Notes under the pieces: model-generated
What the model was told of the DNA's origin: nothing
Seen by the model: only the letters and a program-made list of their open reading frames with translations
Databases searched by the model: none
Assembly: GCA_016185545.1 (NCBI GenBank)
Contig: JACPNJ010000001.1
Location: forward strand, 86,565 to 132,096
Direction: 5' to 3'
DNA length: 45,532 nt
Source of the DNA: Candidatus Yanofskyibacteriota bacterium
Lineage (GTDB): Bacteria; Patescibacteriota; Minisyncoccia; 2-02-FULL-40-12; IGHO2-01-FULL-4-A
Made by a program: the position numbers and the translations under genes
Shown here: one piece after another, positions 5,496-29,044 of the stretch
Layout of the letters: each line of letters starts with the position of its first letter
How positions within the stretch are numbered: the stretch's first letter is position 1

Positions 5496-5530
5496 GGACA
5501 TCGCAAGTCTTGTTAAGACTTGCGATGTCC
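5496..5530. repeat. Perfect 16-bp inverted repeat, TGCGATGTC family
   Basis: Arms at 5496-5511 and 5515-5530 are perfectly complementary, with a 3-base loop. The core GGACATCGCAAGT recurs with one change at 21808-21840 inside a glycosyltransferase gene, so it is a dispersed element. It sits in the divergent gap upstream of gltX. Confidence 0.8.
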
Positions 5531-8235: not shown

Positions 8236-8399
8236 TATTAGTTGTAGGATAATTATGATAGATTCACCCCTGAAGTGAAATTTTTAAGATAACCTGATAA
8301 ATTAAGCTTTTTTACAACTTTACACAAATTACCTGGCAGAAATGCTGGTTTTATTATTTTACATCTACTTAGTGGTTGAGCCACTAAGTAGAACGTGCT
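8236..8399. other. Gap between M23 peptidase and RAYT genes
   Basis: 164 bases of AT-rich sequence. The only structure I can support is the 12-bp palindrome at its right end (8364-8392). No clear promoter. Confidence 0.5.
8364..8392. repeat. REP-like palindrome, left end of the RAYT gene
   Basis: The 23-base core 8367-8389 has 9-bp arms ACTTAGTGG/CCACTAAGT around the loop TTGAG, extended to 12 bp by flanking TCT/AGA. The right arm ends 7 bases before the RAYT ATG. It is the type member of the family described for this window. Confidence 0.9.
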
Positions 8400-9071
8400 A
8401 TGAATAAACTGATGAGGGATATTAAATTTATAAACGGCGAGTTTTATCATATTTTCAATAGAGGAAATAATAAACGGCTCATATTTACAAGCCAATTTGA
8501 TCTTTGCAGATTTTTACAAAGCATGGACGAATTTAATGTTAGAGGCCCGATCGGGAGTATTTATGCCCAGTCTTTTAAAAAAGATTCACTTAATAGCTCA
8601 ACTACTAAGTCGCAGCGGCTAGTAGATTTTGTATGTTATTGTCTGAACCCCAATCATTATCATCTTTTAATCAAACAACTAGTTAATGATGGGATAAGGG
8701 AATTTATGCATAAACTCGGTGCTGGCTATACGCGATACTTTAATGAAAGATATAAATTAAGCGGCAGTTTATTTCAGGGGAGATTTAAAGCTATTCACAT
8801 AGATTCAAACGATTACCTTTTGCATCTGAGCGTTTATATCAATCTAAATAATAAAGTTCACAAACTTAGTAGCTCAGCTACTAAGTTATCAAGTTCTAGT
8901 TGGAATGAGTATATAAGGCCGTTTAAAAGTAATGATTTTTGTAAAAAAGATATCATTCTATCTCAATTCCAAAGTATTTCTAGTTACAAGGAATTTGCGT
9001 GCGATGCTCTAAAAACGATAAGAGACAGAAAAGATATGGAAAAGTCGTTAGAACTTTTACTTAGTAGCTGA
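8400..9071 (+). CDS. REP-associated tyrosine transposase (Y1/HUH, TnpA-REP)
   Basis: The N-terminal GEFYHIFNRGNN, the HUH pair in NPNHYHLLI (His86, His88), the nucleophile region GAGYTRYFN (Tyr110) and LFQGRFKAI are the signature of the RAYT branch of Y1 transposases. These nick and rejoin single-stranded DNA at palindromic REP sequences. The 223-residue protein carries two extra segments, LNSSTTK (about 64-70) and LSSSATK (about 156-162), each encoded by an in-frame copy of the flanking palindrome. Its stop TGA lies in the loop of the right-hand palindrome. It appears intact. Confidence 0.93.
   Translation: MNKLMRDIKFINGEFYHIFNRGNNKRLIFTSQFDLCRFLQSMDEFNVRGPIGSIYAQSFKKDSLNSSTTKSQRLVDFVCYCLNPNHYHLLIKQLVNDGIREFMHKLGAGYTRYFNERYKLSGSLFQGRFKAIHIDSNDYLLHLSVYINLNNKVHKLSSSATKLSSSSWNEYIRPFKSNDFCKKDIILSQFQSISSYKEFACDALKTIRDRKDMEKSLELLLSS
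8588..8610. repeat. REP-like palindrome copy inside the RAYT gene (1)
   Basis: Arms ACTTAATAG/CTACTAAGT with loop CTCAA (opposite orientation to the left-end copy), with one arm mismatch. In frame, encoding LNSSTTK. Confidence 0.8.
8864..8886. repeat. REP-like palindrome copy inside the RAYT gene (2)
   Basis: Perfect arms ACTTAGTAG/CTACTAAGT, loop CTCAG. In frame, encoding LSSSATK, in the same reading phase as copy 1. Confidence 0.88.
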
Positions 9072-15207: not shown

Positions 15208-16062
15208 TTATTTGACCGATTGGATTTTTTGTAAGTTTCGGTACTTCCAAAAAAACTTTATGGCGCTGGCTATATGCCAGCGCGTTTTGCGGTTAAAGAT
15301 TACGTCCAGTAATCCCAGACCGGAACGTGACTCACGCTGATGGTAATGATACATTACGGCTTCTGGATAGTAAACGACCTTATAGTCATTATGCCAGAAA
15401 CGGCGAGCCCAATCAACGTCCTCAAAATACATAAAAAATCTCTCATCCATTGTGCCAATTTTATTGAGCGCTTCCCGGCTTACCATAATTGCCGAACCCA
15501 TCAGCCAATCCGGGGTTTGGATTTTTTGGGGGTCGGCATCAACCATTAAAAAATTATCCAGTTCTCTTTTAAACCACCCAAAACGGCCCAAAAAACTCCT
15601 GCGCGCAAGCATTGTAGCCAGTTTGTAATAACTAAAAAATGTCCTTTGATGCGTGCCGTTGAAATTCAGTACTTGCGGTCCCAGTATGCCAATATCAGGA
15701 TGTTTTTCCATAAAATTGATCATCTTTTGAATTGATTTGTCGGTAACAATCACATCAGGATTTAAAATCAGAATAAACTTACCACTAGAATTTTTAATTC
15801 CCATATTAACTCCCCGTGCATAGCCGAGGTTTTCTTTGAATGGCAGATATTTTATTTCCGGATATTGTTCGCGTATTAAATCTCTTGCTTGCCGCGAAAT
15901 GGTTGAATCCACCACGATAATCTCGGGTTTACTTAGAGGCTCAACCTCTAAGTGGTTTCGAGGTTGAACCTCTAAATCTTTAGTCTTTTTAAGCGATTTC
16001 AAACAGAGCTTCAAAAGTTCCGGTGTCTGATGGTGTACTATGACTATTGAAAATTCAGGCAT
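15208..16062 (-). CDS. Family 2 glycosyltransferase with REP-derived insert
   Basis: A GT2 enzyme (GT-A fold) with FSIVIVHHQTPELLKLCLKSL, EIIVVDST, the NLGYARGVNMGI motif and LILNPDV, as in rhamnosyltransferase-like proteins. Acidic FEDVDWARRF and C-terminal helix follow. After KSLKKTK there is an insert DLEVQPRNHLEVEPLSK (about residues 32-48), encoded by one full and one partial copy of the 23-bp palindrome (15931-15977). The insert is where family members go directly from the first helix to beta-2. It likely adds sugars to a cell-surface glycan. Confidence 0.92.
   Translation of the reverse strand: MPEFSIVIVHHQTPELLKLCLKSLKKTKDLEVQPRNHLEVEPLSKPEIIVVDSTISRQARDLIREQYPEIKYLPFKENLGYARGVNMGIKNSSGKFILILNPDVIVTDKSIQKMINFMEKHPDIGILGPQVLNFNGTHQRTFFSYYKLATMLARRSFLGRFGWFKRELDNFLMVDADPQKIQTPDWLMGSAIMVSREALNKIGTMDERFFMYFEDVDWARRFWHNDYKVVYYPEAVMYHYHQRESRSGLGLLDVIFNRKTRWHIASAIKFFWKYRNLQKIQSVK
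15931..15977. repeat. REP-like palindrome pair inside a GT2 gene
   Basis: A full 23-base copy at 15931-15953 (arms ACTTAGAGG/CCTCTAAGT, loop CTCAA) is followed after a few bases by a partial copy in opposite orientation (AGG-TTGAA-CCTCTAAAT, to 15977). In frame on the minus strand. Arm bases differ from the RAYT-end copies in a compensated way (T to A with A to T). Confidence 0.85.
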
Positions 16063-16064
16063 AG

Positions 16065-17141
16065 TTAGTCGGTTAATATGTTTTTAAACAAATTTTTAAT
16101 TTCCTGGAAATTTGCCTCTTTCGGCAGTAATATGTATTCCCCTTTTTCAGTTTTAGTTTCATAAACCAAATTGTCAATTGAAATCACATAATTTTTAATT
16201 TTTGTTTTAGAGCCAAAAGTATTTACCAGCGAAAGCAGGTCGCCGATATCCCAAATTTGAAAATCGGTGCGGATATCATTTTTTAGGTCTGAAAGCAGAG
16301 ATGTGACCTTAATCGGATTGGATAAAAATCCCAGAGACAGCGCCATGTTTTTTATGGCTGCAATCATCTCCTGCTGTCTGCGTGCCCTGTCAAAATCACT
16401 GGAAGAATATCGTGAACGCGCATAGTAAAGAGCTGTTTCTCCATCAAGATGATTGTTTCCTGCCGGCAGTGAGAACACGTAACCCCATTGGTTTTTTTCT
16501 TCAAATGGTTTGGCGAGATTAATGTCTATACCGCCCAAGTTATTTACTATTTCCCTAAAGGCGTCAAAATCAAAAACCATAGCATTATCAATATAAACGC
16601 CGGTGATTCTGGAAATTGTCTGCTTGGCTAAAGTCAGTCCGCCGCCGTTTTCTAATCCCCTTTCGTATACTTCATTTATTTTACCTTTCAGTTTAATTTT
16701 TTTGCCATTGGAAGCATCTGCCGCCATATCTATGTAGATATCGCGCGGTATGGAAATAATGGCTGCTTTTTGGGTAATTTTATCAATACTTGCCACTATT
16801 ATCGTGTCGGTAAGCAATCCCCCCTCTTCCTCAATCGCGGTTCCGTCTTCGCCTCTTATGCCTAGTATAAGAATATCCAAACGATCAGGTTCGGGACTTG
16901 GCATGGGATTGGGATCAATCGTCGGTTTGGGTTCACCGCTGCCGATATTAAAAATACCGGCTATTTCCTTCCACCACGAACCATTCTCTACCGAGATGGT
17001 GTTATATGTTATCCCAAATTGATAAGCGTAATAGCCAATTATTATTGCCAGCAATATAAATACATAAAAAACTGGCCTCTTATACCAAGGCCGCTTATAG
17101 TTGATAGTTGATAGTTGGTGGTTAGTAGTTAGTGGATCCAT
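16065..17141 (-). CDS. LytR-CpsA-Psr (LCP) family phosphotransferase
   Basis: LCP enzymes transfer undecaprenyl-linked glycans onto peptidoglycan or other acceptors. One N-terminal helix (VFYVFILLAIIIGYYAYQF) precedes the LCP domain with LDILILGIRG, the catalytic-site arginines in SIPRDIYIDM and YYARSRYSSSDFDRARRQQEM. I start at ATG 17141, since the ATG at 17207 would overlap the upstream glycosyltransferase by 79 bases. The cytoplasmic N-terminus TTNHQLSTINY is encoded by a heptamer-type repeat (17100-17135). Confidence 0.92.
   Translation of the reverse strand: MDPLTTNHQLSTINYKRPWYKRPVFYVFILLAIIIGYYAYQFGITYNTISVENGSWWKEIAGIFNIGSGEPKPTIDPNPMPSPEPDRLDILILGIRGEDGTAIEEEGGLLTDTIIVASIDKITQKAAIISIPRDIYIDMAADASNGKKIKLKGKINEVYERGLENGGGLTLAKQTISRITGVYIDNAMVFDFDAFREIVNNLGGIDINLAKPFEEKNQWGYVFSLPAGNNHLDGETALYYARSRYSSSDFDRARRQQEMIAAIKNMALSLGFLSNPIKVTSLLSDLKNDIRTDFQIWDIGDLLSLVNTFGSKTKIKNYVISIDNLVYETKTEKGEYILLPKEANFQEIKNLFKNILTD
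17100..17135. repeat. Heptamer tandem repeat in the LCP gene start
   Basis: Degenerate GTTGATA, GTTGGTG and GTTAGTA units near the 5' end of the LCP gene encode LTTNHQLSTINY. Confidence 0.7.
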
Positions 17142-18235
17142 TGGTGAAATTCTCTTGGTAATATCTTCGTTTTTTGCATAATTTCTTTTCTTCTTTTTAA
17201 CATACATGGCAGTAGTTTGGCAACATTAAAAATTTCTAAAAACATGGATGGCTCAAAAAACAAGAAATATGTCCATAGCCGCAGTTGTCGCCATAAAATA
17301 TATGGCAGGTCACGCAGCAGGTTGGTCGCAAAATCATTTTTGATAATCGTCAGTGTGGTATTCCGCCAGTCCAAGCGGCGTTTGAACATTGGTACGGTCT
17401 TGCGTATTTTGATGAATTCATACCAACCACCGGCAAGCGCTTTGGTTGTCTTGCGATCGTGCCAAGCAATAACACTAGGCGTGTAAACCTGTTTCCAGCC
17501 GAACAGTTTCATCCGCCATGCAAGATCAAGGTCATCTCCATACCAGAAATAATCATGGTCTATAATTTTATTGTTTTGTGATTCCAATCGGCAATCTTCC
17601 AACGCTTGTCTGCGGAAAACCGGCACTGCGCCCTCCACTGCAAAAATTTGCTTATAGCAAATTTTTGCAGTGTCCTGCGAAGCCCTGGCGTAGCAGGAAA
17701 CATTTTGGTCATATTTTCCGTGGTCGGTTTCTCCATGGCCGATATTTATCAAACGTCGGGAGCGGAAGATTTGGAAACCAAGAGTATCAATTATTGTAAT
17801 TGGTAATTGGTAATTGATAACTGGTAGTCGCATCAGATCGTATTTATACACCTTGGCTTGTAGAGCACCGATGCGTGAGTCGCGTTCCATTGCTTCAATG
17901 GCGTTTTTAATGAAGTCAGGATGCAAAATTACATCAACGGACAGTGCCACAACATACTTACCGTGGCCATGTTTGAGCAGTTCTTCCTGGCCGGGCCACG
18001 TTCCCAAATTTTCGCTTTGTTCAAAAAGCGAAAATTTAGGCAACTGTCCACTGTCCACTGTCCACTGTCCACTTTTTATAATTTCTTTAGTTTTGTCAGT
18101 TGAGTTATTATCCAAAATATTAATTTCAATCAGCTCGTGTGGATATGACTGTGCCAAAACCGCATCCAAACACTGGCGGATATATTTTTCACCGTTATAG
18201 ACGACCAAGTTAATTGTGACTATCTGGGTTGACAT
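17129..18235 (-). CDS. Family 2 glycosyltransferase carrying several repeat inserts
   Basis: A GT2 protein with VTINLVVYNGEKYIRQCLDAVLAQSY, EINILDNNSTDKT and YFWYGDDLDLAWRMKLFGWKQ, and a basic C-terminal half without clear membrane helices. At least four repeat-derived segments interrupt it: SGQWTVDSGQ (CTGTCCA x4), KFSLFEQSENLG (13-bp palindrome), NYQLPIT (GGTAATT repeats), and CYARASQDTAKICYKQIFAVEG (two adjacent palindromes, 17638-17698). All stay in frame, so the protein may be functional with surface loops. It overlaps the LCP gene by 13 bases. Confidence 0.9.
   Translation of the reverse strand: MSTQIVTINLVVYNGEKYIRQCLDAVLAQSYPHELIEINILDNNSTDKTKEIIKSGQWTVDSGQLPKFSLFEQSENLGTWPGQEELLKHGHGKYVVALSVDVILHPDFIKNAIEAMERDSRIGALQAKVYKYDLMRLPVINYQLPITIIDTLGFQIFRSRRLINIGHGETDHGKYDQNVSCYARASQDTAKICYKQIFAVEGAVPVFRRQALEDCRLESQNNKIIDHDYFWYGDDLDLAWRMKLFGWKQVYTPSVIAWHDRKTTKALAGGWYEFIKIRKTVPMFKRRLDWRNTTLTIIKNDFATNLLRDLPYILWRQLRLWTYFLFFEPSMFLEIFNVAKLLPCMLKRRKEIMQKTKILPREFHQWIH
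17638..17698. repeat. Two adjacent palindromes inside a GT2 gene
   Basis: First, CTGCAAAAATTTGC (17638-17651) pairs perfectly with 17657-17670 around TTATA. Second, TCCTGC (17673-17678) pairs with GCAGGA (17693-17698) around the 14-base spacer GAAGCCCTGGCGTA. The second is a member of the element also found in alaS at 39367-39392. Confidence 0.88.
17796..17826. repeat. Heptamer tandem repeat (GGTAATT-type) in a GT2 gene
   Basis: About four units of TAATTGG/GATAACTGG, encoding VINYQLPIT on the minus strand. Confidence 0.75.
18006..18037. repeat. Perfect 13-bp palindrome in a GT2 gene
   Basis: AAATTTTCGCTTT (18006-18018) pairs with 18025-18037 around GTTCAA. It encodes KFSLFEQSENLG, in frame. 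Confidence 0.8.
18044..18071. repeat. Heptamer tandem repeat (CTGTCCA) x4
   Basis: Four exact units encode SGQWTVDSGQ on the minus strand inside the GT2 gene, next to the 13-bp palindrome. Confidence 0.92.
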
Positions 18236-18291
18236 AAATAATTTTAGTTATATAATTAAAATGTAGTTCTTTAATTAAAACCGGAGTAGAT

Positions 18292-18426
18292 ATGCCTCTT
18301 GAAGCAAGGGTTGAAGTTGTAGAAGGTCTTTTAAAAAAGTGGTCAAAATTATTCTTTTTGAAAGTAATTTTTACTCGGCCGCACGGCCGTTTTCTTTTTG
18401 TGCCAAAACTAAAGCGATGGTTGTAA
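18292..18426 (+). CDS. Possible 44-residue small protein
   Basis: GGAG lies 6 bases upstream of ATG 18292, and the product (MPLEARVEVVEGLLKKWSKL then a basic C-terminus) would be an amphipathic small protein. It overlaps the 3' end of the convergent O-antigen ligase gene by 56 bases, which lowers the likelihood. No homologue recognised. Confidence 0.22.
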   Translation: MPLEARVEVVEGLLKKWSKLFFLKVIFTRPHGRFLFVPKLKRWL

Positions 18427-19927
18427 CAAAAAGTAAAAATGCCCTTTCATCAAAAATAGCGACGTCTGTTAAAGAATAAACCAGAACCCACGGGAGGAAA
18501 ATGAGAAGAGAGCCGAAGTAAATAGTAATCGGTAACTGGTAACTGGTAACTGGTTTCAAAAAATTGTTGTACAATTTTTTGAGTAGAAGCCAGAGGAACC
18601 AGAGGGCTAGAATAAGTGCCGGGATGCCCATTTCAGCGGCAATATTAAGATAAAGATTGTGAGCCGATGAGCCGGCTTTAACACGAGCAAGATCCTCCCT
18701 TACTACGACCGGAAAATTGCCTATCCCAACACCCAATAGCGGGTGTTTTATTATTGAACGAAGTGAGTCTTTCCATATCTCAATCCGGCGAGCATTGGAT
18801 GTTTCGCTTATATCTATAACCGATCTGGCTCGCTTGGCAAGCATGCCTGTTGAGTTCTTTTCTGCCATAAACTGATCCGAGGCAATAATATAATATGCTA
18901 CGCCGAATAACAAAAAGAAAATCGCCAAATAAGATGATATATATCCAAATTCAATATATGGTCTTCGCAAGGCTACATGCGTTTTGCGAAGACGAAAAAT
19001 TAAAAATATAGCCAAAATAGCGGACATGACGCCGGCGACCCAAATACCGCGTGTACCGGTGAGTATAAGAGCAAGAAAGATGATCGGCGTAAAAATTACA
19101 AGCATGGAAGCGCGTGTTTTAAGCATAGTTTTGAAGCCGATGCCCTTTCCAACAACTTTTTTCAGCGCAATTGCCATGACTGCCGGCAAACCCAGAAGCA
19201 GGAATATGGGAAAAGAATGTGAATCCGGGAAAATTGAAAACATACGTAATGAAAGTTGGTCGCCGAAATAAGCAAACCAAGTGTTGGCTTTGATAGCCGT
19301 TTCCGCCCAAACATTGCCGTACATGTTGCGCTCCACTACCCCGCCCCAAAAATCAACAAAGCGGAAAATGTCCATAAAATAAGTCATGGCAAGCTGGACC
19401 ATACCCAATAGCACGACTATAATTGTGGGAATCGCGATATTTTTAATTAGGCGACGACTGAAATCCTGATTTTTCCGCACTAAATCATAAATTACAATGC
19501 CGATTAGTGAAAGGTTTATAAAATAAATAATTCTTTTGGCGGATAAGATATAGTTTTGTGCCTGAGTGGCCGATAAAATGGCGAGCAGTAAAAGCCCAGC
19601 CAGCAAAAGGCATACTGTACGACATCGCATGTCGTACATGTACGACATGCGATGTCGTACATGCGATAATGCCCATTTTATAAAAATTAAACCCGATAGA
19701 ATGCGCCACATGTTAAGGGAATCAAAACCGGCAGTTATCGGAATGGCAATGAAAAATGGAATTGAACGTACAAAAAAAGTTGTGGAATCCTCAAGCGAAA
19801 CCAGCAAAACCTGAACTGTCAGGGCGATTGTCCAAAAAGGCACAACCGCCCGCGGCAAAATACCGGTTATAACCAAGCCGATAACAAGTAAATGAATTAC
19901 AAAAATAATATTTAAAAATTTCGACAT
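18371..19927 (-). CDS. O-antigen ligase/polymerase-like membrane protein
   Basis: A polytopic protein with about 11-12 hydrophobic helices and the Wzy_C/WaaL-type large outer loop ending RIEIWKDSLRSIIKHPLLGVGIGNFP and SSAHNLYLNIAAEMG. This H(N)xYL pattern is typical of ligases that join undecaprenyl-linked glycan to an acceptor. I choose ATG 19927 (16-base overlap with the upstream gene); ATG 19960 is an alternative. A 44-base perfect palindrome near residues 100-115 encodes VRHRMSYMYDMRCRT between two helices. A GGTAACT heptamer tract (18524-18555) encodes VTSYQLPIT near the C-terminus. Confidence 0.9.
   Translation of the reverse strand: MSKFLNIIFVIHLLVIGLVITGILPRAVVPFWTIALTVQVLLVSLEDSTTFFVRSIPFFIAIPITAGFDSLNMWRILSGLIFIKWALSHVRHRMSYMYDMRCRTVCLLLAGLLLLAILSATQAQNYILSAKRIIYFINLSLIGIVIYDLVRKNQDFSRRLIKNIAIPTIIVVLLGMVQLAMTYFMDIFRFVDFWGGVVERNMYGNVWAETAIKANTWFAYFGDQLSLRMFSIFPDSHSFPIFLLLGLPAVMAIALKKVVGKGIGFKTMLKTRASMLVIFTPIIFLALILTGTRGIWVAGVMSAILAIFLIFRLRKTHVALRRPYIEFGYISSYLAIFFLLFGVAYYIIASDQFMAEKNSTGMLAKRARSVIDISETSNARRIEIWKDSLRSIIKHPLLGVGIGNFPVVVREDLARVKAGSSAHNLYLNIAAEMGIPALILALWFLWLLLKKLYNNFLKPVTSYQLPITIYFGSLLIFLPWVLVYSLTDVAIFDERAFLLFVTTIALVLAQKENGRAAE
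18524..18555. repeat. Heptamer tandem repeat (GGTAACT) in the ligase gene
   Basis: Three near-exact units plus flanking variants, encoding PVTSYQLPIT on the minus strand. Confidence 0.8.
19617..19660. repeat. Perfect 44-base palindrome in the ligase gene
   Basis: Positions 19617-19660 are a perfect self-complementary sequence with no unpaired loop. It has internal sub-palindromes, since ACGACATGCGATGTCGT is itself nearly self-complementary. It encodes a hydrophilic, Arg/Met-rich loop. The GACATCGCA/TGCGATGTC core resembles the palindromes at 5496 and 21808. Confidence 0.92.
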
Positions 19928-21018
19928 ATTCTCAAAAATCTTTCCATATGTTCTTTCCAAGTATATTTTTTCAAAATATCTTCACGGCTGTTTTTTATTT
20001 CTTGGCATTTTTGTTCGTTATTGAGGCCAATTCTTATTGCATCGGCTATTAATTTTAGATTATCGGGATTTTGTACAAAGAATGCATTGTCACCAAAAAT
20101 TTCTCGAGTTACTTTTTGATCGGCGACAATCGCCGGAACCCCGTAGCTTAACGCTTCAAGAGGCGGCAAGCCGAAGGCCTCCTTGGATGAGACATATACC
20201 AACAGTTTGGCATGGGCGTAAAGCTGGACCAGTTCGTCTTCGCTGGCGTATTCCTTATAAATTATCCTTTCTTTTCCGATACGATTATTTATTTCTTGAG
20301 CAAGCGTTTTTATAATTGGCGGATTATATTTGTCTTTACCGACAGTTATTAATTTTAAATCCGCAAATTGACCGGCAATCAGTTCAAATGCCAACATAGT
20401 TTCCCGCAGATGTCTTCTCGGAAACGCTTGCCCTACATACAAGACATAGTCACCTGAAATCTGTAATATGTAATCTGTAATCTGTTTGGGTTTATCAACC
20501 CCCAACTGGTTGACCATGATTCGGTTATGGTCAATTTGAAATAGTCGCGCTACTTCTCGCTTAGAGGTTTCAGAAATTGTCATTATCCGAGTCGCATGCT
20601 TAGCGGCCCAGTTGGCGAATATTTTATAGGCCAGTTTATATCGCCAAGGTAGGGTTCCTGAATTTATTTCGTAATAAATATCTTCCGTCAGCATGACTAA
20701 TGATTTACCCCGGAATAAAATTGGCAGCATATAGTTTGGGAAAAACATCATATCCAATCTTTCAAACCAGAGTTTAATCGGCAGAAATAAGTAGTAATAT
20801 AAACTAAATGACGAAATCCCAACTGCTTTTTTTACAAAAATCGGATTATTTAAAAACGGCAAATCTGGAACACACAACTTGAAATAAAGAAAAAATCTGA
20901 ACTCGTCGGCGAGTTCAGGTCTGTTGGTTATTTCTTCAAGAAGTTTTTTTATGATTCTACCGATACCCCAAGATTCTGGTCCCTCGATAGATTCGCATTC
21001 AATACCGATTCTAATCAA
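19912..21018 (-). CDS. Family 4 glycosyltransferase
   Basis: A GT-B glycosyltransferase of family GT4: GIECESIEGPESWGIGRI at the start, YVLYVGQAFPRRHLRETMLAF in the middle, and the nucleotide-sugar-binding EAFGLPPLEALSYGVPAIVAD motif near the C-terminus. The length of 368 residues is usual. A heptamer tract (TAATCTG units near 20457-20486) encodes KQITDYILQISG between the two Rossmann domains. It overlaps the downstream ligase gene by 16 bases, consistent with one polysaccharide operon. Confidence 0.92.
   Translation of the reverse strand: MIRIGIECESIEGPESWGIGRIIKKLLEEITNRPELADEFRFFLYFKLCVPDLPFLNNPIFVKKAVGISSFSLYYYLFLPIKLWFERLDMMFFPNYMLPILFRGKSLVMLTEDIYYEINSGTLPWRYKLAYKIFANWAAKHATRIMTISETSKREVARLFQIDHNRIMVNQLGVDKPKQITDYILQISGDYVLYVGQAFPRRHLRETMLAFELIAGQFADLKLITVGKDKYNPPIIKTLAQEINNRIGKERIIYKEYASEDELVQLYAHAKLLVYVSSKEAFGLPPLEALSYGVPAIVADQKVTREIFGDNAFFVQNPDNLKLIADAIRIGLNNEQKCQEIKNSREDILKKYTWKEHMERFLRICRNF
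20457..20486. repeat. Heptamer-type repeat in a GT4 gene
   Basis: Units TAATCTG, TAATATG, TAATCTG, TAATCTG, encoding QITDYILQIS. Confidence 0.75.
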
Positions 21019-21086
21019 TAGTATCTAGTACTTAGTATTTAGTATCTAGTATTGAATACAAAATATGAGATACAAAATACCGATTA
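21019..21086. repeat. Heptamer tract in the gap between glycosyltransferase genes
   Basis: TAGTATC, TAGTACT and TAGTATT units, then ATGAGATACAAAATAC repeats. Nothing else seen in this 68-base gap. Confidence 0.65.
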
Positions 21087-21992
21087 CTAATTTATTTGAC
21101 CAAATTTTCCTCTATAAAAATCCCCTACCCCGGCCAGAATTGCCTTTGAAATTTCTCGTTTAGTTGGAATCAGCGTAATCTTGATAATCTGTTTTATTAT
21201 AATAAAAATTGACCAAAACGGCAAGGCAAGTTTGGCCCAAAATGGCCCATTTTTATAATTGAAAAGATGAGCGTTACGGTAGTGGTAGCGGAGCAATAAT
21301 GGTGCGCCCAGTGAGAATGTTGATGATGACGGTTTGTGGTGGACGAATGCTTCTGGCGCGATTTTTAATTTGTAGCCGGCTTTTTGACCACGAAGGCAAT
21401 AATCAGCATCTTCAAAATAGAGGAAAAAGCGTTCATCCAGTAAACCGATTTTTTCAACAACTTTTCTTTTAATTAGCATTGCTGCCCCCGACGCGTAACA
21501 CTTAGTGGTTGAGCCACTAAGTGGACTTAGTGGCTCAACCACTAAGTGGGAAAGTTCTGGTTTTAACCATTTAATTTGGCCGCCGTAAATTATTTGACCA
21601 TTTTCATTTATCGCTGGACCGAGAATGCCAATTTGCGGATCAGATTTTGCGGTTTCTATCAGTTTTGTCAGTACGTTTTTTTCAATTGTGGTATCTGGGT
21701 TTAGTATGAAGACATAATCAGCCCCGCGTTCTAATGCATGCTTGATACCGGCATTGTTGCCGCCGGAATAGCCGAGATTGGAATCAAGGGCAATAATTTT
21801 AATTTTGGGACATTGCAAGTTCAGTGGACTTGCGATGTCCTTTAATACTTCAATATGTTTGGCATCGGATCCATTATCTACTACAATTACCTCATGGTTC
21901 TGATAGTCAAGTTCTTTAACAGAATTAAGGCACCGCATGGTGTCTTGGGAATTATTGTATTGGAGGATGATGATGAAAACCTTTGGAATCAT
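21087..21992 (-). CDS. Family 2 glycosyltransferase with two palindromic inserts
   Basis: A GT2 enzyme with VFIIILQYNNSQDTMRCLNSV, HEVIVVDNGSDAK, DSNLGYSGGNNAGIKHAL and FILNPDTTIEKNV, the typical nucleotide-sugar-binding order, then YFEDADYCLRGQKAGY. Two inserts stand out: SPLNLQCPKIK (palindrome 21808-21840) between beta-2 and the NLGYSGG motif, and LSHLVVEPLSPLSGSTTK (two REP-like palindromes, 21500-21547) before GAAMLIKR. Both preserve the frame. A C-terminal hydrophobic helix (ALPFWSIFIIIKQIIKI) may bind the membrane. Confidence 0.92.
   Translation of the reverse strand: MIPKVFIIILQYNNSQDTMRCLNSVKELDYQNHEVIVVDNGSDAKHIEVLKDIASPLNLQCPKIKIIALDSNLGYSGGNNAGIKHALERGADYVFILNPDTTIEKNVLTKLIETAKSDPQIGILGPAINENGQIIYGGQIKWLKPELSHLVVEPLSPLSGSTTKCYASGAAMLIKRKVVEKIGLLDERFFLYFEDADYCLRGQKAGYKLKIAPEAFVHHKPSSSTFSLGAPLLLRYHYRNAHLFNYKNGPFWAKLALPFWSIFIIIKQIIKITLIPTKREISKAILAGVGDFYRGKFGQIN
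21500..21547. repeat. Head-to-head pair of REP-like palindromes in a GT2 gene
   Basis: 21500-21522 is identical in its 23 bases to the RAYT left-end copy (loop TTGAG). 21525-21547 is the same sequence inverted, except for one loop base (loop CTCAA), with GG between. The pair resembles BIME organisation in enterobacteria. In frame. Confidence 0.93.
21808..21840. repeat. TGCGATGTC-family palindrome in a GT2 gene
   Basis: GGACATTGCAAGT (21808-21820) and ACTTGCGATGTCC (21828-21840) pair with one wobble. Near-identical to the 5496-5530 palindrome. In frame. Confidence 0.82.
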
Positions 21993-22119: not shown

Positions 22120-23220
22120 AATTTCTTGATTAAATCTTTCTTCTGAAAACCGCTCTGCGGTTTTTTTTATAACTTCTGCATTGTAATTTGTTAAATTTTG
22201 TTTTAGACGGCGCACTCCATCAGCCAATACTTTTTCTGTCGGGTCGTCAAAGAAATCGCCGTTGACGCCTTCCTGTATATATTCTAACGCGCCGCCGCGC
22301 CTGAGCGCCAATACCGGTTTGCCGTAGCTCATGGCTTCAATCGGGGTAATGCCAAAATCTTCTTCTTGGGGCATAATAAATGCTATACAGTTTTGATAAT
22401 AATTGGGCAGTTCTTTGTCGGAAACAAACCCAAACATTTTAATATTTTTGAGATTTGAGATTTGAGATTTGAGATTTTTATATTCGGGTCCATCCCCTAT
22501 TATAACGAGGGGCCATTCAAGCTTGTTGAATGCCTTAATAGCGATATCTATATTTTTATGTTTATACAAACGGCTGACAATCAAGAAGTAATCGGTAATC
22601 GGTAATCGGTAATCGGTAATTTGATGTCGTAGACCGACAGGTGGATATATGACCAGAGAATCACACTGGTAGTATTTTTGTATGCGTTGGCGGACATTTT
22701 CGGAAATTGCGATAAACTGGTCAACTCTGGTGGAGGCAAGGCGGTCCCAGATGCGCAGCAGGTGTTGAATTGAAGAGACCCATATTTGTGGCGCAATATG
22801 TCCCTCTTTTTTATATTCCGCATGCCAATCCCATAATTGTCTTGTCGGACTGTAACAATAGCAAATATGCCTTGTTCGCGGTTTAACTACCAAGCCCTTA
22901 GCAAAGGCGACAGACGAGGAAATTACCAAGTCAAAACCGCTTAAATCTATGGATTCAATGGCGATAGGTAAAAGCGGAATTAGCAATTTATGGCCACGGA
23001 AGACACGGTAAAATTTTTGAGTAAAAGTTGGCCTTATTTCTGCTTGTGGCAAAAACCAATCCGTAAATTTTTTATTGAAAAAAAGTGTGTATATCGGCGC
23101 TCTTGGAAATATCCCGTGCAATACTTTGAGTGTTTTCTCTGCTCCACCCATTCCCAAAAGCCAATCATGTACCAGCGCAATTTTTAAATTTTGTAGATTT
23201 TTTGACACTTTTCTGAGCAT
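22099..23220 (-). CDS. Family 4 glycosyltransferase (mannosyltransferase-like)
   Basis: A GT4 enzyme beginning KIALVHDWLLGMGGAEKTLKVL, with YCYSPTRQLWDW and the donor-binding EDFGITPIEAMSYGKPVLALRRGG. The N-terminal signature is common in CPR and other mannosyltransferase-like proteins; the actual sugar cannot be read. Two heptamer tracts are embedded: GGTAATC x4 (QITDYRLPITDY, 22587-22622) and GAGATTT x4 (NLKSQISNLKN, 22450-22477), both between the two domains. It is the first gene of the minus-strand polysaccharide cluster. Confidence 0.93.
   Translation of the reverse strand: MLRKVSKNLQNLKIALVHDWLLGMGGAEKTLKVLHGIFPRAPIYTLFFNKKFTDWFLPQAEIRPTFTQKFYRVFRGHKLLIPLLPIAIESIDLSGFDLVISSSVAFAKGLVVKPRTRHICYCYSPTRQLWDWHAEYKKEGHIAPQIWVSSIQHLLRIWDRLASTRVDQFIAISENVRQRIQKYYQCDSLVIYPPVGLRHQITDYRLPITDYFLIVSRLYKHKNIDIAIKAFNKLEWPLVIIGDGPEYKNLKSQISNLKNIKMFGFVSDKELPNYYQNCIAFIMPQEEDFGITPIEAMSYGKPVLALRRGGALEYIQEGVNGDFFDDPTEKVLADGVRRLKQNLTNYNAEVIKKTAERFSEERFNQEILNFICQ
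22450..22477. repeat. Heptamer tandem repeat (GAGATTT) x4
   Basis: Four exact units, encoding LKSQISNLK on the minus strand in the GT4 gene. Confidence 0.92.
22587..22622. repeat. Heptamer tandem repeat (GGTAATC) x4-5
   Basis: Exact tandem units in the same GT4 gene, encoding ITDYRLPITDY. Confidence 0.9.
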
Positions 23221-27024: not shown

Positions 27025-27058
27025 GGTTATAGGTTATAGGTTATAGGTTATAGGTTTA
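27024..27058. repeat. Heptamer tandem repeat (AGGTTAT) x4 before rplM
   Basis: Four exact units and a variant fill the rplQ-rplM gap. On the coding strand the unit is ATAACCT, which repeatedly supplies TATAAC, a -10-like hexamer. Confidence 0.92.
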
Positions 27059-29009: not shown

Positions 29010-29044
29010 AGGTTATAGGTTATAGGTTATAGGTTATAGGTTAT
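29010..29044. repeat. Heptamer tandem repeat (AGGTTAT) x5 before rpsD
   Basis: Five exact units; the same heptamer as before rplM, 2 kb away. Confidence 0.93.

Follow-up and report, generated by a model that had tools for sequence, protein, structure and literature searches.

REPs and REPINs that occur with a RAYT gene, together termed REPtrons, are short palindromes, often arranged as inverted pairs, that flank the RAYT gene (PMC3733652, PMC3116915, PMC8266576). Classical REPs are mostly intergenic and carry a GTAG-type tag; RAYTs accompany the GTAG families of REPs, whereas CGTC-type families, including some Rickettsia palindromic elements (RPEs), have no associated transposase (PMC3733652). 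REPs inside genes have also been described, with the most in Opitutus terrae and Rickettsia conorii, and the recB genes of Xanthomonas contain different REPs at approximately the same site (PMC3733652). RPEs are the classic case of in-frame palindromes in genes, and are found in unrelated, often essential genes, housekeeping genes among them (PMC10969869, PMC3733652). At orthologous RAYTs the cognate REP class can change, an event called orthoswitch, with old and new classes coexisting and the old copies proposed to stay and decay (PMC3686654). Finally, perfect inverted repeats are kept within translated genes of nematomorph mitochondria, where the arms encode conserved protein sequence (PMC6649704).

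Here we analysed a stretch of 45,532 nucleotides (the window; contig C5, positions 86565-132096, of genome G000) from a Candidatus Yanofskyibacteriota bacterium. The genome measures 853 kb in 8 contigs, with a completeness score of 100%, and small genomes are found throughout the order. As in REPtrons, short palindromes, often in inverted pairs, flank a RAYT gene whose product has the same fold and putatively the same catalytic residues, and some copies lie within genes, as in Opitutus terrae. Unlike in classical REPtrons, copies of the main family (family 1) are untagged and mainly coding, and in-frame copies also lie within the RAYT gene. The elements share their placement with RPEs, whose sequences form a different set, and are likened to them on that ground without being filed among them; in contrast to CGTC-type repeats, each family has a cognate RAYT. 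The likeness to orthoswitch lies in orthologous RAYTs with different flanking classes, but here dispersed coding sites hold different, mostly perfect variants between species, and unlike the nematomorph repeats the inserts are dispersed and linked to a transposase.

A RAYT gene tagged by its own palindromes

In addition to the Pfam domain listed in Table 1, the RAYT-like ORF of the window matched the NCBIfam family REP_Tyr_transpos at a sub-threshold score. Residues H86, H88 and Y146 are invariant among 37 relatives, and from its position Y146 is the putative catalytic tyrosine; relatives occur in records labelled Nomurabacteria and Paceibacterota, which together with the small genomes of the order suggests a Patescibacteria-type organism. 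Searching the PDB by sequence with a profile of the RAYT gave no match, whereas a fold search with the AlphaFold model (mean pLDDT 87.6) returned as its best PDB match 4er8, the structure of a RAYT in complex with a REP hairpin. The ORF is thus a divergent RAYT with a Y1/HUH transposase fold.

Three close copies and one distant copy of the RAYT are present in G000, and the close copies are marked upstream, internally and at the stop codon by a palindrome variant of their own. When 40 RAYT loci were scored with one stem mismatch allowed, palindromes flanked both sides at 29, and an internal in-frame palindrome with the same core as the flanking copies was found at 19. These internal copies recur at two protein positions (window RAYT numbering): residues ~61-70, a low-confidence loop directly before the HUH strand in the predicted model, and residues ~155-163, a loop following the YINLN motif. 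Stems vary widely among RAYTs, yet internal and flanking copies of one RAYT usually agree. The cognate palindrome both flanks the RAYT and is dispersed through the genome, as is characteristic of RAYT/TnpA-REP systems. A Bacteroidales RAYT (L043, 1330-1956) also contains an in-frame internal palindrome with the core of its flanking copies, at another protein position.

Table 1. RAYT, glycosyltransferase and Wzy genes and their palindromes, in window positions.
Feature	Position	Strand	Details
Family-1 palindrome upstream of RAYT	8367..8389	.	Extended arms 8364-8392
RAYT-like HUH tyrosine transposase, family-1 cognate	8400..9071	+	223 aa; Pfam Y1_Tnp, E 4.9e-7
Imperfect family-1 palindrome, in frame in RAYT, internal site 1	8588..8610	.	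Peptide SLNSSTTK
Family-1 palindrome, in frame in RAYT, internal site 2	8864..8886	.	Peptide KLSSSATKL
Family-1 palindrome spanning RAYT stop codon	9059..9081	.	
GT2a, glycosyltransferase family 2, in-frame insert	15208..16062	-	Pfam Glycos_transf_2; 13 residues longer than in G003
Full family-1 palindrome in GT2a	15931..15953	.	Peptide LEVEPLS
Degenerate family-1 palindrome in GT2a	15955..15977	.	Core GAGGTTGAACCTC at 15960-15972
Wzy/O-antigen ligase type protein with family-2 palindromes	18371..19960	-	Pfam Wzy_C
Family-2 palindrome, in frame in Wzy ORF	19616..19638	.	TGTACGACATCGCATGTCGTACA
Family-2 palindrome, inverse copy in Wzy ORF	19639..19661	.	Directly abuts the preceding copy
GT2b, glycosyltransferase family 2, in-frame insert	21087..21992	-	Pfam Glycos_transf_2
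Family-1 palindrome in GT2b	21500..21522	.	
Family-1 palindrome in GT2b, inverse orientation	21525..21547	.	2 bp from the preceding copy

Palindromes in the glycosyltransferase and Wzy genes

A sequence-only reading of the window had reported copies of the RAYT palindrome in two GT2 genes, some 7 and 12 kb away, including one head-to-head pair, and held that they add peptides without breaking the frame. This description proved accurate: GT2a contains a full copy with a degenerate partner, GT2b contains a perfect inverted pair, the palindromes translate in frame as DLEVQPRNHLEVEPLS and LSHLVVEPLSPLSGSTTK, and the distances agree when measured from the cognate copies at 8367, 8588, 8864 and 9059. 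At a maximum of three mismatches, eight family-1 matches were observed in the window compared to 0.00 expected. Single-stranded DNA fold z-scores were -10.1 for the GT2b pair (21.5 kb) and -6.3 for the GT2a pair (15.9 kb), and in the predicted GT2b model the insert forms a low-confidence loop, the least confident region of the model. The pair in the Wzy-type ORF, which is placed between GT2a and GT2b, is unrelated to family 1. The proposed resemblance to RPEs is borne out by in-frame insertion in unrelated protein genes. A transposase candidate, which that reading took as the distinguishing feature, is indeed present as the cognate RAYT; its occurrence beside coding palindromes is not new in itself, because intragenic REPs are known from RAYT-bearing genomes, Opitutus terrae and others (PMC3733652).

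Other repeats were observed in the window. Short tandem repeat runs (17793-17827, 18044-18075, 18515-18560, 22585-22619, 27027-27058 and 29013-29044), several of them built from a 7-bp unit (GTAACTG, GTCCACT or TTATAGG, for example), lie within glycosyltransferase and Wzy ORFs and also between ribosomal genes. Strong palindromes of different sequence at 17636-17672, 18006-18037, 18556-18582 and 20897-20918, within GT2, Wzy and GT4 ORFs, may represent further families of the same kind. An intergenic palindrome at 5496-5530, GGACATCGCAAGTC...GACTTGCGATGTCC, shares its core with family 2.

Family-1 copies dispersed in the genome

In the whole G000 genome the family-1 pattern was found at 30 places with at most three mismatches, compared to none for the reversed pattern; given these counts, those in the window and the fold z-scores, a chance origin is ruled out. 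Genome counts derive from pattern searches and selected stretches, and G000 holds at least the palindrome families described here. Besides the copies at RAYT loci there are 16 dispersed sites, 12 of which lie inside genes with the frame kept (FemAB, an S11 peptidase resembling DacA, GlyRS, ArgRS, ComEC, CysRS, UvrC, MurC, ProRS, HolB, GT2a and GT2b); one further site ends the NusA ORF, and the rest are intergenic or lie at the edge of a gene. Family 1 is therefore not mostly intergenic. Since ~85% of the window is coding, this placement means that family-1 palindromes, in contrast to classical REPs, show no clear avoidance of coding sequence, and the in-frame placement reflects survivorship, because frame-breaking insertions in essential genes would go unseen.

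Each element adds roughly 8 to 18 amino acids. Inverted pairs of the REPIN type are present in GT2a, GT2b, ArgRS, MurC and Wzy, alongside single copies in DacA, CysRS and ComEC. A GTAG, GTGG or CGTC ending was found in one of 78 family-1 flanks, and assignment of family 1 to the GTAG or CGTC REP superfamilies by tag was rejected; no target motif was detected in the flanks of the insertion sites. The link to surface glycans suggested by the sequence-only reading was not upheld, as the same elements are found in tRNA synthetases, MurC, HolB, YqeY, TGT, MnmA, PlsY and other proteins, and a glycan-specific role was rejected with most targets being housekeeping genes. One G000 protein, FemAB (L246, 947-1975), combines family 1 near residue 27 with family 2 near residues 168-184.

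Empty and filled sites in relatives

For comparison of sites, homologues were drawn from seven genomes of the family, brought in by one concatenated query. The FemAB gene of a congener is 39 nt shorter, the length of the element itself, and ArgRS of G002 is 18 codons shorter, with an element of 54 nt including the outer arms; the differences are 16 codons for GlyRS and 13 codons for GT2a versus G003. Of the two GT2 insertions, that of GT2a has empty sites in relatives, the segment being absent from G003, G001 and G005; the GT2b site is a variable-length loop. Neither segment was retained in GT2 homologues without a palindrome: for GT2b the congener G003 alone gave a close match, which is itself a palindrome pair, the others having unrelated loops. 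In G002 the GT2a site is occupied by a palindrome-free segment, unrelated but comparable in length, indicating that this loop too tolerates other sequence. Because of such length variation, the insertion boundary in CysRS, GT2b, MurC and UvrC cannot be fixed, and the UvrC copy is doubtful as an insertion, showing no length gain versus relatives. Several congeners have palindromes at the DacA and CysRS sites. No family-1 copies were found in G004, G005 and G007, all of which lack a close RAYT, while in G006, where no RAYT was detected, two family-1-like copies are present.

Second and third palindrome families

Family 2 was found at 23 places in G000, and its reversed pattern nowhere. The fourth RAYT of the genome (C1:261647) is cognate to this family, with copies upstream, inside (~residues 49-56) and downstream. 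Family 3, unrelated to family 1, is a 39-bp palindrome of 13 codons (CCTGTGGATAANCGACTT-CGC-AAGTCGNTTATCCACAGG) found in a different family within the order (G019, G021, G022 and G023). Its in-frame hosts comprise TGT, a cysteine desulfurase-like protein, MnmA (two sites), PlsY, AlaRS, and Wzy-like membrane proteins and a GT2-like protein, the last two named by eye from sequence. By the rule used, 22 of 49 family-3 copies are clearly inside ORFs, and palindrome-free homologues of family-3 sites are present in G013, G017 and G020. Each of the three families flanks its own RAYT.

Probable dispersal by the cognate RAYT

The palindromes are probably REP/REPIN-like hairpins that are dispersed by their cognate RAYT and land mostly in coding DNA of this lineage. 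This is supported by the cognate families, the fold match to 4er8, the dispersed copies within genes in families 1 and 3, the empty sites of matching length, the REPIN-like pairs, and the absence of family 1 from the three genomes without a close RAYT. Points against it are the missing GTAG tag of family 1, the G006 copies without a detected RAYT, the lack of a target motif and the variable-length loops at CysRS, GT2b, MurC and UvrC, where boundaries are uncertain. The association, the fold and, by analogy, TnpA-REP biochemistry (PMC8266576) suggest that the RAYT would recognise the hairpin when the DNA is single-stranded, cleave it, and join the hairpin or a copy of it to another place; intragenic copies would survive in tolerant loops, provided that neither total length nor reading phase closes the frame. 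Most of the added protein segments are presumably neutral.

Variation at orthologous sites

Palindromes at orthologous sites differ mostly by paired stem changes, while the flanking DNA is only ~55-85% identical. For family 3, each altered stem pair at sites A to D is altered on both sides (150-nt flanks mostly 55-85% identical), and site E shows two one-sided changes. The DacA palindromes of G003 and G000 differ by three paired changes, the CysRS site holds three variants across three congeners, and in the ArgRS pair one stem letter is altered in both copies. Over all pairwise comparisons of family 1, which are non-independent and include the mirrored one-sided changes of GT2b, 17 of 29 altered stem pairs were changed on both sides. 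At stem position 7 of family 1, each of the four Watson-Crick pairs occurs among 24 distinct copies, and the pair is never broken.

Three routes may account for variant exchange at a fixed site: replacement driven by the RAYT, template switching in the host, or recurrent insertion into loops that tolerate it. Our tentative proposal, for which the odds appear somewhat short of even, is that a new RAYT/palindrome variant converts the copies in essential genes and in the RAYT gene in place, so that protein segments evolve in concert under the transposase; resident copies would thereby be replaced by the variant of the active RAYT.

Alternatively, the insertions could be ancient, and replication by the host, through template switching and quasi-palindrome correction, could be the sole source of their perfection and paired changes, the RAYT no longer acting. 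In GT2b of G003 a one-sided change in one copy is mirrored in the other and the 48-nt hairpin stays perfect, which favours hairpin-templated correction, and loop orientation flips between orthologues, as hairpin-templated copying would yield. However, the stem letter is shared within genomes (C-G in all six G019 copies, A-T in most G023 copies) and RAYT-internal copies match the flanking ones. Local correction would not by itself bring separate copies into agreement, and the shared letter favours a shared source, which makes host replication as the sole cause unlikely; both processes may act together. The imperfect DacA palindrome of G001 (8 of 10 pairs), a genome without a close RAYT, fits decay without RAYT and also counts against this explanation, as a single case.

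Slightly less likely again is that each orthologous site gained its variant by a separate insertion into a tolerant or preferred loop, rather than by alteration of one ancestral insertion. TPR-containing membrane proteins of G000 (L241, 1481-1552) and G021 (L151, 1501-1531), homologous to each other, contain family 2 and family 3, respectively, in approximately the same loop, after an SGRGDP motif, and many sites are variable-length loops, both consistent with repeated insertion. Yet phase and arrangement are the same at DacA, the ArgRS pair, TGT, the cysteine desulfurase-like gene and MnmA, which is more simply explained by a shared ancestral insertion, and no target motif was found in the flanks. 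Retention for a host function, as expression-controlling RNA hairpins or useful peptides, is very improbable, for although the hairpins are strong, recurrent RAYT-internal copies could serve autoregulation, and several congeners have filled DacA and CysRS sites, the copies sit in the middle of genes for unrelated proteins, use more than one reading phase, encode different peptides and are missing from many orthologues.

Discussion

Intragenic REPs in RAYT-bearing genomes and RPEs were known already. What is new is the mainly coding placement, the tagging of RAYT genes in frame by their own hairpins at recurrent sites and, as the different, mostly perfect variants at orthologous coding sites suggest, variant replacement in place. 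In the open-licence literature, which makes this weak evidence, the combination of coding placement, self-tagged RAYTs and orthologous perfect variants was not found described, and nothing relevant was found on the phenomenon in Patescibacteria/CPR.

Protein-coding palindromes such as those of Rickettsia had no identified enzyme, whereas here three unrelated families each have a cognate RAYT, so that the mover becomes directly testable. The orthologous sites allow palindrome turnover to be traced base by base, in gene-dense, tiny genomes that carry selfish hairpins within essential proteins.
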